In this document: in pieces, positions 58,440 through 64,000 of the stretch
Position numbering within the stretch: position 1 is the stretch's first letter
Layout: each line of letters begins with the position of its first letter
From: an uncultured Acetobacteraceae bacterium
Lineage (GTDB): Bacteria; Pseudomonadota; Alphaproteobacteria; Acetobacterales; Acetobacteraceae
NCBI GenBank assembly: GCA_903924985.1
Contig: CAIYDT010000083.1
Coordinates: 1-64,000, forward strand
Reading direction: 5' to 3'
Length of the DNA stretch: 64,000 nt
Translations under genes and position numbers: made by a program
Notes under the pieces: model-generated
The model's database searches: none
What the model saw: only the letters and a program-made list of their open reading frames with translations
Told to the model about the DNA's origin: nothing

Positions 58440-58480
58440 GCGGCGTTAACGTTTTGTTAACCTGATGGGTTCATGGTGGT

Positions 58481-58498
58481 GCCTCCACGACTGGAGGC
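58481..58498 (+). promoter_or_regulatory. Hairpin GCCTCCA-CGAC-TGGAGGC containing the likely SD of the toxin gene
   Basis: Perfect 7-bp stem, 4-nt loop; GGAGG lies 5-9 nt before ATG 58503. Confidence 0.6.
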
Positions 58499-58502
58499 AT
58501 CC

Positions 58503-58925
58503 ATGCGATTCAAGCTTGACCATCTATTCATAAAACCATATAACGATATAACCGATGAGGACGACGATGATGTCGACCCCGCCGAGCTGGTGTGGATCGG
58601 CAGCAGCCGCAAGGCGCTGCGGGAATTTCCTCCGACGGTGCGGCGGGCGTTCGGAGTGTCCTTGTTCGCGGTGCAACTGGGGGAGACGCCGCCCTCGGCC
58701 AAGCCACTGAAAGGGTTTCGTGGCGCCGGCGTGCTGGAACTGATCGAGGATCATCGGGGGGACACGTACCGGGCCGCCTACACGGTGCGGTTCACCGACA
58801 AGGTTTACGTTCTGCACGTGTTTCAGAAGAAGTCCAAGAAGGGGATCGCCACCCCCAAGATGGAAACCGATTTGATCCGGCAGCGGTTGAAGCTGGCGGA
58901 GGATCTTCACAATGGGGCCGAATGA
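58503..58925 (+). CDS. Type II TA toxin, phage-derived Gp49-like/HigB-like (RelE superfamily)
   Basis: ELVWIGSSRKALREFPPTVRRAFGVSLFAVQLGETPPSAKPLKGFRGAGVLELIEDHRGDTYRAAYTVRFTDKVYVLHVFQKKSKKGIATPK. Confidence 0.92.
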   Translation: MRFKLDHLFIKPYNDITDEDDDDVDPAELVWIGSSRKALREFPPTVRRAFGVSLFAVQLGETPPSAKPLKGFRGAGVLELIEDHRGDTYRAAYTVRFTDKVYVLHVFQKKSKKGIATPKMETDLIRQRLKLAEDLHNGAE

Positions 58926-59250
58926 TATGGAAAAGACCCACGAACTCAGCAGCGGCAACGTTTTCGCCGACCTTGGCCTACCTGATTCCGAACAGGAGCT
59001 GGTGAAGGCGAAACTGACTGTACAAATCTACCGGATTCTGAAGGCTCGCGGCGTAACGCAGGTCGAAGCGGCGCGGTTGCTGGGTACCACCCAGGCGCAG
59101 GTTTCCACCCTGATGCGCTGTAAGCCTGTTTCGGTATCTGTCGGCCGGCTGATGGAGTTCCTGACCACCCTGGGCCAGGATATCCAGGTTACCATCAGCC
59201 CGGCGCGGGGTCAGGATGTGGGGCGGATGTCGGTGGTGGTCAGGGGCTAA
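58912..59250 (+). CDS. XRE-family antitoxin (HigA-like), partner of upstream toxin
   Basis: VQIYRILKARGVTQVEAARLLGTTQAQVSTLMRCKPVSVSVGRLMEFLTTLGQDIQV; ORF overlaps toxin stop. Confidence 0.92.
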   Translation: MGPNDMEKTHELSSGNVFADLGLPDSEQELVKAKLTVQIYRILKARGVTQVEAARLLGTTQAQVSTLMRCKPVSVSVGRLMEFLTTLGQDIQVTISPARGQDVGRMSVVVRG

Positions 59251-59253
59251 CCG

Positions 59254-59658
59254 TTACGCCTTCTCGAACACCGGCAGCGTCAGATCGTCCTTCACCTTAT
59301 CGAACCCCACCTTCACCGGCAGCCCGACTCGCAGGTCTTCCTGCGTAATCCCCCGCACCTGGGCGTTCATCCGCACCCCTTCCTCCAGGTCCACCGTCAC
59401 CAGGATGTAGGGTAGGTCGCCCTTGAAACCCGGGTGGAAGGCGTAGTGGGTAATGGTCCAGCTATGCACCGTTCCGCGGCTGGAGGCCTCGATCCATTTC
59501 GCGTTCATTGAGTAGCACGCGTCGCACACCGGCCTGGGATAATGCCGCACCTTACCGCAATCGGCGCAGGCTTGCAGGCACAGGCGGTGTTCTTGCAGGC
59601 CGGTCCAGTAAGGTTGGGTGTCCGGGGTGGGGGAGGGGACCAGCTTATCGTATTCCAC
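59254..59658 (-). CDS. Zn-ribbon/OB-fold (DUF35-type) acyl-CoA-associated protein
   Basis: CLQACADCGKVRHYPRPVCDACYS; SRGTVHSWTITHYAFHPGF; adjacent thiolase. Confidence 0.9.
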   Translation of the reverse strand: MEYDKLVPSPTPDTQPYWTGLQEHRLCLQACADCGKVRHYPRPVCDACYSMNAKWIEASSRGTVHSWTITHYAFHPGFKGDLPYILVTVDLEEGVRMNAQVRGITQEDLRVGLPVKVGFDKVKDDLTLPVFEKA

Positions 59659-59661
59659 TGG

Positions 59662-60807
59662 CTAGGCCCTCCGCATGATGGCGAGCGCGCCGTCGCCCAT
59701 GTCGCCGTAGCCGGTGACCAGACCGATCTCGGCATCCTTCACCTGCGCCGCCGCTTCCCCGCGCAACTGGCGGGTGAGTTCGACGATGTGGTTCATCCCC
59801 GCCATATGCGCCTGCGACAGAAGCCCGCCATGGGTATTGACCGGCATCTTCCCGCCCAGCCGCAGGGCGCCGTTCTCGATGAAGCCCCCGCCCTCGCCCT
59901 TCTTGCAGAAGCCGAGGTCTTCGAGCTGGCACATCACGATGTAGGTGAAGCAGTCGTAGACTTCGGCCACGTCGATATCGCTGTGGGTGACGCCTGCCAT
60001 CGCGAAGGCCTTGGGCGCGGCTTTGGCCAGACCCAACGTGGTCAGGTCCGGCCGCTGGGTGATCGCGGAGGGCGAGTCCGGATGCCCCTCCGCCACGCCC
60101 ATCACCATGATCGGGCGTCTGGCCAGATCGCGCGCGATGTCCGGGGCGCTGATCACCACCGCCGCGCCGCCGTCGCTTTCCAGGGAGCAATCCAGCAGCC
60201 GCAGCGGGTCGGAGATCATGCGGCTCGCCTGATGATCCTCAATGGTGATCGGGGTCCGCATGGTGGCGTTCGATTGCAGGGAAGCGTGGTAGCGCGTGGA
60301 CACCGCGATCTCGGCCAACTGGCGGGAGGTGGTGCCGTATAGCTCCATGTGCCGCCGAGCCATGGGGGCGTAAAGCTGCGCGGGGGCGATGGCACCGAGG
60401 GGCATCTCGAACTCCCCGATCGTGCGGAACTGCGGCATTTGCTGCACCCGCGTGCCGATGCGACCGCCGGAGTAGCCCGTGCGGCCAAGCGACAGGAGCA
60501 CATGCTTGCAGATGCCGGCGTCGATCACGGCCATGGCGCATTGGATCGCGGCAACGGACGACGCGCCGCCCATCGGCGTGGTGGCGGAGAAGCGCAGGTC
60601 CTTGATGCCGAAATTGGTGACGAAGTCCTCGGCCACCGCGCCGTGACCATAGGGGATCAACCCGTCTATATCGGTGGGTTTCAGGCCGGCGTCGCGGATG
60701 GCGGCCAGCGACGCTTCCAGTTGGAACGACAGCGGGGTGCGATCGGTGCCTCGCAGATACTGGGTTTCTCCGACGCCGGTGACGGCGGCTGCTTCGTGCA
60801 GGGGCAT
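59662..60807 (-). CDS. Thiolase-family (acetyl-CoA acetyltransferase/lipid-transfer-like) protein
   Basis: AAVTGVGETQYLRGTDRTPLSFQLEASLAAIRDAGLKPTDIDGLI; DVAEVYDCFTYIVMCQLEDLGFC; HGGLLSQAHMAGMNHIVELTRQLRG. Confidence 0.92.
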   Translation of the reverse strand: MPLHEAAAVTGVGETQYLRGTDRTPLSFQLEASLAAIRDAGLKPTDIDGLIPYGHGAVAEDFVTNFGIKDLRFSATTPMGGASSVAAIQCAMAVIDAGICKHVLLSLGRTGYSGGRIGTRVQQMPQFRTIGEFEMPLGAIAPAQLYAPMARRHMELYGTTSRQLAEIAVSTRYHASLQSNATMRTPITIEDHQASRMISDPLRLLDCSLESDGGAAVVISAPDIARDLARRPIMVMGVAEGHPDSPSAITQRPDLTTLGLAKAAPKAFAMAGVTHSDIDVAEVYDCFTYIVMCQLEDLGFCKKGEGGGFIENGALRLGGKMPVNTHGGLLSQAHMAGMNHIVELTRQLRGEAAAQVKDAEIGLVTGYGDMGDGALAIMRRA

Positions 60808-60864
60808 GGGGTGGGTTCTCCTGCGCGGCAGTGTCGGTTAGACTCCGGGGTCCGTCAATTCGGC
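60800..60864. repeat. Left copy of a degenerate direct repeat flanking the OLD-like gene
   Basis: AGGGGCATGGGGTGGGTTCTCCTGCGCGGCAGTGTCGGTTA...GTCAATTCGGC; ungapped match to 62587-62651. Confidence 0.85.
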
Positions 60865-62544
60865 GCATACCGCCAAGCGGCGCATGAAATCGTGGACGTC
60901 CTCGTGGATTTCGTCTGGGAGCATATGGGCGGCCACTTCCTCACGCGTCGGTGCCATGCCAGCGATTGCTCTCAGCGATTGGAAGAGAGATTCATCGCCT
61001 TCGAACAGGATTAGCTTTCCATCGACGCGCCGGAAAATATCGGCGGTGACAGTTCGCCAAGTCCGTCCGGGGGGCAGGGACAGGAGTTGGTCCGAAAACC
61101 ATCGATCGACGACAGCCAATCGAAGCGACTGAAAGAGGTCGGTGTCTCCCGCTGGCAGATTTCTGGTCACGGCGCGATGCCAAGCATCCGGCACCAGAAG
61201 ATAGTTCTCGATATTCCGGCGCTTCCATTCCGCCAACGATGGATTGTCAGGACCCGGATGGAATGCTTTGGCATCGTCGTCGAAATCAAACAGCATCATC
61301 CTCTTAACCCCGGGGATGATCTGCTGTAAGGCTACAAAATGGTCGTCCGCTGCTTTTTTCATATCGCGCGTGCTGCCGCCGCCCATGGTATGAAAAGTAA
61401 ACTTGCCAACCGCGTCGGTGACGCCGCAAGCCTCTGCCCAGGCGCGCAAGATACGCTCATCCGTTTCACCCTCGACGTAAAGAATAAACGGCGATGCCCG
61501 CAGCCGGGTAATCTCTTCGTTCGCGACATCGGCCATGGCCCTGAGCAGCGCAGGTGTGGACTGAATGCGCTGCGGTACGCCTGCCAGCAGTGATATAATC
61601 TGCGCCCCATCCACGCCGCGAGCGAATTCTTCGGCATGAGTCGCGATCAGGAATTGGACCCCGCGCTGCTGTGATTGCAGTTTGAAATAATCCAAAATTT
61701 CCCGTTGCAAACGCACGTGCAGATGGGCGTCCGGTTCATCCAACAAGATCGTGGTTGGACTATACCCAAAGAGAAACGCCAACAGCGTGAGGGTTTGATG
61801 AAACCCGCTCCCGCCTGATATAATATCGTATTTACGTCCATTTTTTTCGTAATCGACGGTTATGTTGACGTCGGATTCCGGGTCGTATTTCGGTTTAACG
61901 ATACGAACGTCGAGCCAACGCTTGATTTGTTTCGCCAATTCATCCCATTCTGCGGTTTTGAGTTCGGCGACCCGAAGCAGCAGATTACGTAACACACCCC
62001 CAGGTTGTCCTTTACCGACCTGCTGCCGGATTGGCGCATCGTCGAGCCGCTTTTCTACCGGCTCCAAACCGGAAAATGGTGGGACATAGGCTATCTTCGG
62101 CAGAGTTCCCAGCTTGGCGAGCTGACGGAATTGCTCCCATCCCCCCTGAGGAATGGCGTAAATGGTCTGCTGCGATTGATATCGTAGTTGGACGCCGAAC
62201 GCGCCGCCGGTGCCATCGGCGTTCCGCCACGTCAGCTCGATTTCAATGAGAATAAATGCTTGCGTCTTCGTGGCGGTGTTCCGGCGGTCCACCCGGTCCT
62301 TCCACAGCAGGATGAACTCCGGCAACGGCAATGCGGTGAAATTCGGCAGCACGATCTGAATTCCCGTAGAGCCCCGGCGATCCACTCGCCGAAACTCATC
62401 GACGCAGAACTGCCAGATCGCCAAGGCCTGCAAAATCGTGCTCTTGCCGCTGTTGTTCGGCCCAACCAGCAGATCGAACTGGCCGAACTCGAAGACCTGC
62501 TCTCCGATAGCCTTGAAGTTTCGTAGCGTGAGCTTGTCGATCAT
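60838..62544 (-). CDS. OLD-like AAA/ABC ATPase with C-terminal TOPRIM domain
   Basis: FDLLVGPNNSGKSTILQALAIWQF Walker A; ISGGSGFHQTLTLLAFLFGYSPTTILLDEPDAHLHVRLQREILDYF; TOPRIM FILYVEGETDERILRAW and MLFDFDDD. Confidence 0.9.
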   Translation of the reverse strand: MIDKLTLRNFKAIGEQVFEFGQFDLLVGPNNSGKSTILQALAIWQFCVDEFRRVDRRGSTGIQIVLPNFTALPLPEFILLWKDRVDRRNTATKTQAFILIEIELTWRNADGTGGAFGVQLRYQSQQTIYAIPQGGWEQFRQLAKLGTLPKIAYVPPFSGLEPVEKRLDDAPIRQQVGKGQPGGVLRNLLLRVAELKTAEWDELAKQIKRWLDVRIVKPKYDPESDVNITVDYEKNGRKYDIISGGSGFHQTLTLLAFLFGYSPTTILLDEPDAHLHVRLQREILDYFKLQSQQRGVQFLIATHAEEFARGVDGAQIISLLAGVPQRIQSTPALLRAMADVANEEITRLRASPFILYVEGETDERILRAWAEACGVTDAVGKFTFHTMGGGSTRDMKKAADDHFVALQQIIPGVKRMMLFDFDDDAKAFHPGPDNPSLAEWKRRNIENYLLVPDAWHRAVTRNLPAGDTDLFQSLRLAVVDRWFSDQLLSLPPGRTWRTVTADIFRRVDGKLILFEGDESLFQSLRAIAGMAPTREEVAAHMLPDEIHEDVHDFMRRLAVCAELTDPGV

Positions 62545-62586
62545 GCAGGCCCCCTACCGAATTCGGGCCGCGCCGGCACCGGTGAC

Positions 62587-62651
62587 AGGGGCATGGGCTG
62601 GGTCCTCCTGTGCGGCAGTGTCCGTTACCCGAAGTCGGTCGTCAATTCGGC
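62587..62651. repeat. Right copy of the degenerate direct repeat flanking the OLD-like gene
   Basis: AGGGGCATGGGCTGGGTCCTCCTGTGCGGCAGTGTCCGTTA...GTCAATTCGGC; first 41 nt 37/41 identical to 60800-60840. Confidence 0.85.
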
Positions 62652-63206
62652 CCGCACGTTGTCGGGGAGGATGGCCATGTGGCCGTAATGGGGATGGTTG
62701 AAGCCCAGGGTAATCTCGGCCATCGGGAAGGCCGCGATCTGGGCGGCGGTGAAGGGGAAATGCACGAACTGCACCGACGATGCCTTGCCGTCCTCCCGCG
62801 TGCGGTCCTGATCGGCTTCCGCCACGCATCGGACCGTTTCGCTATCCAGTCGGATGAACGCGGTGTTTTCGATGCCGCCCAGACTATCCAGCACGCGGGC
62901 GCGGCGAATGGGATCGTCGATTTCGATCATGAAGGTGGCGGTGAGTTCCGATCCGTTCGGAATCAAAGGGTTATACGCTTCCAGTTCGCCGGGCACCTGC
63001 TCGGCACCGCCCTTTTCGATGTAGACCATCTCCTGGATTTGGTGCCACATCGTGTCGTAGGACTCGAAGTAGAAGGTAATGTAGGGGCCGACCTCAACCC
63101 GGCGGTTGCGCTTCCTGGCGGTGATCTCGCTGCGGAGTTGGGTGCGGTTTTTCGCGTATTCCGCAGCGGGGATGATGTCTGAAACAGTGATGATGCGTTT
63201 GGGCAT
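62625..63206 (-). CDS. DUF3501-family protein
   Basis: ITVSDIIPAAEYAKNRTQLRSEITARKRNRRVEVGPYITFYFESYDTMWHQIQEMVYIEKGG; next to CCG-domain protein. Confidence 0.88.
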   Translation of the reverse strand: MPKRIITVSDIIPAAEYAKNRTQLRSEITARKRNRRVEVGPYITFYFESYDTMWHQIQEMVYIEKGGAEQVPGELEAYNPLIPNGSELTATFMIEIDDPIRRARVLDSLGGIENTAFIRLDSETVRCVAEADQDRTREDGKASSVQFVHFPFTAAQIAAFPMAEITLGFNHPHYGHMAILPDNVRAELTTDFG

Positions 63207-63238: not shown

Positions 63239-64000
63239 TCAGCCGGAAAACCCATAGGCACGCGCGAGCAACTGGATTGGGTGCGTCACCAGTTCGGGCC
63301 TGGCACCGTCCTGATCCAACGCATCGATACCCTGGGCGATATGCACGCCGGCCAGCGGGCACTCCGACATCACGAACCCCGCGCCGGTTTGCTGGGCGGT
63401 CTGAGCGACCGGCTTGCCGACTTTCATCGCGACAGGGAACCATTCCTCCTTGAAGCCCCAGGACCCGCCATGCCCCGAGCAGCGCTCGATCACCTTGACG
63501 GTGGAGCCAGGGATCAGGCGAAGCATTTCCGCGCCCTTCTGCCCCATATTTTGCGCCCGGGCGTGGCAGGCCATGTGCAACGATAATGTGCCCGGGACGG
63601 TCTGCATGCCCTCGGCCATACCTTCCTTCTTCGCGATATCGACGACGTATTCGCTGATATCGAAGGTCGCGCGGGACAACAGGGAAATATCGGGATCGCC
63701 TGGGAGAATAAGCGGCCATTCCGATTTCAGCATCAGCCCGCAGGACGGGACCAAGGCGATGATGTCGTAGCCCTTCTCGATCCAGGGCTTCATCTCGGCG
63801 GCCACCTTGCGGGCGTTGGCGGCGACCTCGTCGATGCGGCCTTGTTCCAGCAGCGGCATGCCGCAGCAACTGGGGTAAACCACGGTGGTTTCGACGCCGT
63901 TCTTCGCCAATACCCGGCGGGCGGCGACGCCGACATGGGGTTCGTTAAAATTGACGAAGCACGTCGCGTACAACACGGCTTTGCGGCCGAACGCCGGGGC
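63239..64000 (-). CDS. CCG-domain Fe-S oxidoreductase (heterodisulfide reductase/GlpC-like), truncated by window edge
   Basis: VVYPSCCGMPLLEQGRIDEV; ALVPSCGLMLKSEWPLI; HMACHARAQNMGQ; ERCSGHGGSWGFK; frame open to 64000. Confidence 0.9.
   Translation of the reverse strand, partial: APAFGRKAVLYATCFVNFNEPHVGVAARRVLAKNGVETTVVYPSCCGMPLLEQGRIDEVAANARKVAAEMKPWIEKGYDIIALVPSCGLMLKSEWPLILPGDPDISLLSRATFDISEYVVDIAKKEGMAEGMQTVPGTLSLHMACHARAQNMGQKGAEMLRLIPGSTVKVIERCSGHGGSWGFKEEWFPVAMKVGKPVAQTAQQTGAGFVMSECPLAGVHIAQGIDALDQDGARPELVTHPIQLLARAYGFSG

Follow-up and report, generated by a model that had tools for sequence, protein, structure and literature searches.

Class 1 OLD nucleases, such as P2 Old and Thermus scotoductus OLD, are single genes without adjoining defence partners, in which an ABC ATPase is followed by a TOPRIM-like half (PMC10568477). 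The OLD-like gene described here lies in a 64,000-nucleotide stretch of a contig from an uncultured Acetobacteraceae bacterium (hereafter, the window), and it shares with the Class 1 enzymes its solitary position, its apparent domain order and its length of ~570 aa. Unlike them, it is only ~15% identical by fold alignment, and its relatives are often found in type III restriction-modification (R-M) loci with a UvrD-like helicase. Its ATPase fold and motifs are also those of Gabija GajA, a Class 2 OLD, and in some relatives of the window gene a UvrD helicase lies directly downstream; however, the window OLD is ~50 aa shorter than GajA and gives only weak GajA profile matches, and ORF and Pfam searches of the window found no GajB/UvrD-like helicase beside it.

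The surroundings of the gene have counterparts of their own. As in the aerobic-type rubrerythrin cluster RBR-RFO-DUF3501 (PMC5114695), RFO and DUF3501 are neighbours, here located upstream of the insertion, and the window contig (64,775 bp) ends before any rubrerythrin gene could appear. The junction between DUF3501 and the next gene, a thiolase, resembles the tRNA-type hotspots found at gene 3' ends in having a duplicated gene end and several occupants in one place. In contrast to those hotspots, it has no recombinase, its breakpoints are not fixed and its duplicated piece is promoter-like. We think it likely, with a probability of about 0.72, that a foreign OLD was inserted at the DUF3501-thiolase junction and that the overlap between the neighbours, with a promoter in it, was copied, leaving both neighbours intact.

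The locus and the OLD-like protein

All genes around the junction are read from the reverse strand. The thiolase-like gene (59662..60807), of the lipid-transfer/acetyl-CoA acetyltransferase type, matches Pfam Thiolase_C_1, with NCBIfam thiolase-domain subfamilies below cut-off, and has an OB-fold/zinc-ribbon partner (59254..59658; Pfam OB_ChsH2_C and zf-ChsH2). On the other side of OLD (60838..62544; 568 aa) lie DUF3501 (62625..63206; Pfam PF12007, E 1.8e-58), a gene of the aerobic-type rubrerythrin cluster, and its upstream partner, a GlpC-like Fe-S oxidoreductase (63239..64000; Pfam CCG), which is the RFO of PMC5114695 and continues beyond the window. With these four genes as its neighbours, OLD stands alone. 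Adjoining the OB-fold gene, at 58473-59250, is a head-to-tail pair of Gp49-like (HigB-type) and HTH_37 (HigA-type) genes that is probably a toxin-antitoxin module.

The N-terminal half of OLD is an ABC-type ATPase with the Walker A motif GPNNSGKST, DEPDAH and an H-loop (Pfam AAA_15/AAA_21, E 1e-18); Walker A, the signature, Walker B and the H-loop are invariant in 24 relatives. No TOPRIM profile matched OLD. In the AlphaFold model (pLDDT 81), the strands and helices of the C-terminal half come in an order that fits TOPRIM, and three residues of this half, E358, D420 and D422, are again invariant in 24 relatives. Among PDB structures, the model matches PtuA, GajA and Thermus OLD with E-values of 1e-10 to 1e-12, and also retron PtuA. 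TM-scores are low, the GajA and TsOLD matches covering 500-661 columns with a TM of 0.27-0.30. Because it keeps 213 of the 222 columns conserved across 44 relatives, we regard OLD as intact. It is most likely a single-gene, ATP-driven DNA nuclease acting against phage or other foreign DNA, and its predicted role in defence is likely.

By its gene context, OLD is Class 1-like (PMC10568477). Among 31 relatives with well-covered flanks, neither R-M nor UvrD genes were detected beside 20, and 11 lie in a type III R-M locus, often with a UvrD-like helicase next. Loci made up of type III Res, Mod and OLD were seen in L034, L045, L049, L052, L055-L057, L059-L061, L077 and L078; the N-terminal part of the UvrD-like helicase that follows appears RelE-like by eye, and such loci could possibly be composites of R-M and a Gabija-like system. 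At L058:2321-11093, OLD comes directly after a 1263-aa SMC-like protein; read by eye, this protein is similar to JetC of Wadjet, and a JetD-like gene lies farther along.

The junction is present in two copies

An earlier note, made from the sequence alone, had described OLD as bracketed by a direct repeat of the junction, and our alignments confirm this. In a repeat search, the strongest direct repeat of the region paired 60799-60864 with 62586-62651 (66 nt, 80% identical ungapped), and comparison of the two flanks of OLD by blastn gave 38/42 identical positions from TAA to ATGCCCCTG (E = 9e-11), a stretch that takes in the stop, the leader and three codons at the thiolase start. When gapped, the copies measure 79 nt on the DUF3501 side (J1, 62573..62651, reverse strand), consisting of the DUF3501 end, the leader and a thiolase start remnant, and 95 nt on the thiolase side (J2, 60770..60864, reverse strand), including the last OLD codons. 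Their alignment scores 84, where none of 2000 shuffles exceeded 39, and the direct repeat search found nothing similar at the other gene junctions of the region. A further copy elsewhere in the genome was considered and dropped, the sole other near match (C91) falling within a gene that appears to be lpxC.

The stops of OLD (60838) and DUF3501 (62625), both TAA on the reverse strand, fall within their respective copies, as had also been claimed. The 12-mer GCCGAATTGACG precedes both stops in identical register, and it is because of this common 12-mer that OLD ends AELTDPGV and DUF3501 ends AELTTDFG, both of the form AELT-x(4). The OLD tail is perhaps partly native, as the OLD relative L050 ends TGTDPGNAV. 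The proposed remnant of the thiolase start, with a 16-nt deletion, stood only in part: it belongs to the optimal J1/J2 alignment, but the sequence past the deletion (TCACCGGTGCCGG) does not reach significance alone (p = 0.20, unanchored shuffle). The junction copy is therefore certain only up to ATGCCCCTG, and we have dropped the remainder as independent evidence.

Upstream of OLD, J1 holds a promoter-like element, TTGACG-N17-GACACT (62617..62645, reverse strand, by pattern scan), followed by CAGGAGG and a 17-codon open frame, MPLSPVPARPEFGRGPA (62541..62594, reverse strand), which derives from the duplicated thiolase start and whose TGA overlaps the start of OLD (ATGA). The same element in J2 (60830..60858, reverse strand) is still upstream of thiolase. 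Its spacer differs in 12 nt, yet the two hexamers remain exactly 17 nt apart in both copies. At 60841-60852, the altered J2 spacer has GACCCCGGAGTC in the position of ACCGACTTCGGG, a nearly perfect palindrome of 12 nt that leaves the spacing unchanged.

Empty sites and the origin of OLD

An empty site, in which DUF3501 adjoins thiolase across a gap of 35-61 bp, is directly observed in nine of 32 congeners (G021, G022, G023, G025, G005, G010, G011, G016 and G018). No close OLD homologue occurs in any of the 32, the best two matches being 31-33% identical and on other contigs, and 299 further family genomes contain none at E <= 1e-60. The nearest relatives of OLD are 50-66% identical and come from distant bacteria of many phyla; its GC3 is 0.65, against 0.80-0.87 in its neighbours. 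OLD is compositionally foreign and horizontally acquired. The empty sites in congeners, the absence of OLD there and its foreign GC3 therefore show the direction of change to be an insertion, in the case of OLD at any rate. The checks suggested in the earlier note all turned out in support of its reading as an acquisition and not a random intergenic placement.

We give practically no weight to the contrary reading that there was no insertion and that the repeat is a conserved resemblance, in ribosome site and coding sequence, of two ordinary junctions. Shine-Dalgarno and start sequences do lie inside the repeat, but the identity of the two copies, an alignment score far above the shuffle maximum and the dissimilarity of the other junctions in the region all speak against it, and the nine empty-site genomes together with a foreign OLD refute it.

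OLD had no match on plasmids (PLSDB, E <= 1e-40) or on phages (INPHARED, E <= 1e-20). We also considered OLD as a self-moving gene that brings about its own long target duplication and rejected this, as a repeat of the window type flanks 0/44 of its relatives; their flanks yielded two short exact matches only.

The J1 and J2 leaders agree with each other at 26/30 positions and with any congener at 23-24/31 at best. In the thiolase tree, the empty-site genome G021 falls outside the clade formed by the window genome (G000), G012 and G013. A single ancestral duplication shared by this clade was rejected, as the leaders differ among the three genomes while both copies in the window genome match. 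With J1 and J2 mutually closest, G021 outside the clade and the three leaders differing, we place the origin of the duplication in this lineage or in one very near it.

A donor of the latter kind is possible, though we hold it doubtful: a sister strain that already carried an OLD-junction unit could have supplied OLD on a circle or fragment, by homologous recombination in which a single crossover left two junction copies. J1 and J2 differ at ~10% of ungapped sites, as would be expected between sister strains, and are nearer to each other than to any compared congener. However, drift following an internal duplication would account for the same divergence equally well, and OLD with the window junction was found in none of the compared congeners or family genomes. 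This alternative concerns only how the DNA was rearranged and does not conflict with the promoter reading given below. Recombination with a related junction, as suggested in the earlier note, is one of several possible routes; circle integration, tandem or internal duplication and break repair are candidates alike.

A promoter-like element overlapping the end of DUF3501

The duplicated block is conserved at the level of DNA. Over the seven codons at the 3' end of DUF3501 (GAA TTG ACG ACC GAC TTC GGG/GCG), the nine empty-site genomes differ by no synonymous change; the gene-wide value is 0.357 synonymous changes per same-residue codon pair, and in genomes where thiolase is not adjacent the last eight codons give 0.436. 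TTG makes up ~10% of leucines in the remainder of DUF3501 and is found at the frozen site in 9/9. Conservation runs beyond the stop as TTGACG-N17-GA[AC][AC]CT (GAMMCT), and the sequences are divergent afterwards.

The element follows thiolase rather than DUF3501, as it stays with thiolase when DUF3501 is absent, displaced or replaced. G002 lacks DUF3501 and keeps TTGACGATCGGCTTCGGCTGACCGAACCT before thiolase. In G013, where an insert separates the two genes, the thiolase-side copy retains both hexamers, and the DUF3501-side copy retains the coding end with TTGACG changed to CTGACG. In G012, despite replacement by katG, the whole element is still before thiolase. A looser pattern, TTGACS-N17-GANNNT, which we framed after inspecting some of the upstream sequences, occurs upstream of thiolase with unrelated spacers in 3/12 other genomes (G028, G031 and G032) and in at most one genome in any of 20,000 shuffles. 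The exact pattern is found four times in the 5.6 Mb genome of the window, two of these at J1 and J2, and three times in G028 (6.8 Mb), once just upstream of thiolase; it is absent in G026, G029, G030, G001, G003, G006, G007, G009 and G014.

The simplest reading of these sequences is that TTGACG-N17-GAMMCT would be the core of the thiolase promoter, located inside the last DUF3501 codons. Its -35 hexamer TTGACG agrees with sigma-70 and its spacing is constant at 17, whereas the -10 hexamer, GACACT or GAACCT, is poor compared to TATAAT; a stock sigma-70 scan did not call the element. The weakness of the -10 hexamer, and downstream leaders that by eye can fold into hairpins, would also suit an RNA or operator element such as an attenuator or a repressor site, for which the argument from selection would otherwise be the same. 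We consider this unlikely, given that the length of the block and the 17-nt spacing fit a promoter core, with the spacer free to vary. That the duplicated piece comprises the DUF3501 tail together with what is probably the predicted thiolase promoter was not seen in the earlier note and is new here.

With a promoter in this position, the outcome of an insertion would depend on where it falls. A plain insertion upstream of the promoter would truncate DUF3501, and one downstream would part the promoter from thiolase, so both neighbours would keep working only if the insertion copies the overlap. We propose that a foreign OLD-like gene entered the DUF3501-thiolase junction in the lineage of this genome and that its insertion duplicated ~80-95 bp of the junction, J2 then preserving the thiolase promoter and J1 the coding end of DUF3501. 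From J1, OLD would in addition gain a promoter, a Shine-Dalgarno site and, coupled to its start via ATGA, a short leading frame, so that OLD may be expressed like the thiolase it displaced, and could have been expressed immediately upon arrival.

Other occupants of the junction

The earlier note raised the question of a hotspot, and the same junction does hold other genes in other genomes: a 0.9-kb insert in G013 with a small protein that has a PEP-CTERM-like tail (read from sequence, with no library match), nitrile hydratase subunits in G026, an amidohydrolase on the opposite strand in G029 and G030, and a chemotaxis receptor in G032. For G026, G029, G030 and G032 either arrangement may be the ancestral one. 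In G012 (C97; L081:4782-7237), a full katG (catalase-peroxidase) lies where congeners have the Fe-S oxidoreductase and DUF3501, with synteny on both sides; the Fe-S oxidoreductase is gone and DUF3501 is reduced to ~33 codons, a remainder that includes the whole element. The DUF3501 end is thus present twice where DUF3501 survives (the window genome and G013) and once where it does not (G002 and G012).

Several unrelated genes at one junction, a DNA block conserved at a gene 3' end and a gene end duplicated in both the window genome and G013 are also what one would see if the DUF3501 3' end were the attachment site of a site-specific recombinase and OLD and the other occupants were carried by small integrative elements which rebuild the end of the gene, as at tRNA genes. 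Yet no recombinase is encoded in the inserts of the window genome, G013, G026, G029/G030 or G032, and the breakpoints vary, lying at the -35 in the window genome, G013 and G002 and ~33 codons upstream in G012. The hexamers also turn up around unrelated spacers at loci where DUF3501 is not the neighbour, and none of the 44 loci of OLD relatives has flanking repeats of the window kind. We regard an attachment site as quite unlikely. Insertions are in any case tolerated at a boundary between functional modules, which this junction also is, and its several occupants therefore do not show that genes insert here at a high rate.

Single foreign genes are often found inside host operons without a visible mobile element, and the insertion with copied overlap that we favour suggests why, with one junction seen empty, filled and with its upstream genes swapped: selection would retain those events that copy the overlapping gene end and the promoter. 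Each ingredient is already known; their combination in a natural series of genomes makes a clean test case. It is tempting to speculate, and we do so tentatively, that this is a general rule of gene capture, in which, wherever the end of an upstream gene contains a promoter, only insertions that copy the overlap are tolerated, the guest gaining a promoter and a start region ready for use and the two host genes remaining whole. If true, such junctions would be standing landing sites for defence and accessory genes without a dedicated integrase, and a synonymous freeze together with a duplicated junction would be the signature to look for in other genomes.

Other features of these loci touch on the function and history of the genes concerned. 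The katG swap in G012 supports a role for DUF3501 in peroxide handling, and a rubrerythrin was read by eye in the Fe-S oxidoreductase-DUF3501 cluster of G013. A decayed thiolase start (56% over 80 codons) comes after DUF3501 in G024 (L164; C1, after 158420), an apparent loss of thiolase at the junction. TTGACGGGATCGCTGGTCTTACCGAATCT has ~35 occurrences in G029, most of them at contig ends, where the end of an insertion sequence would be expected.
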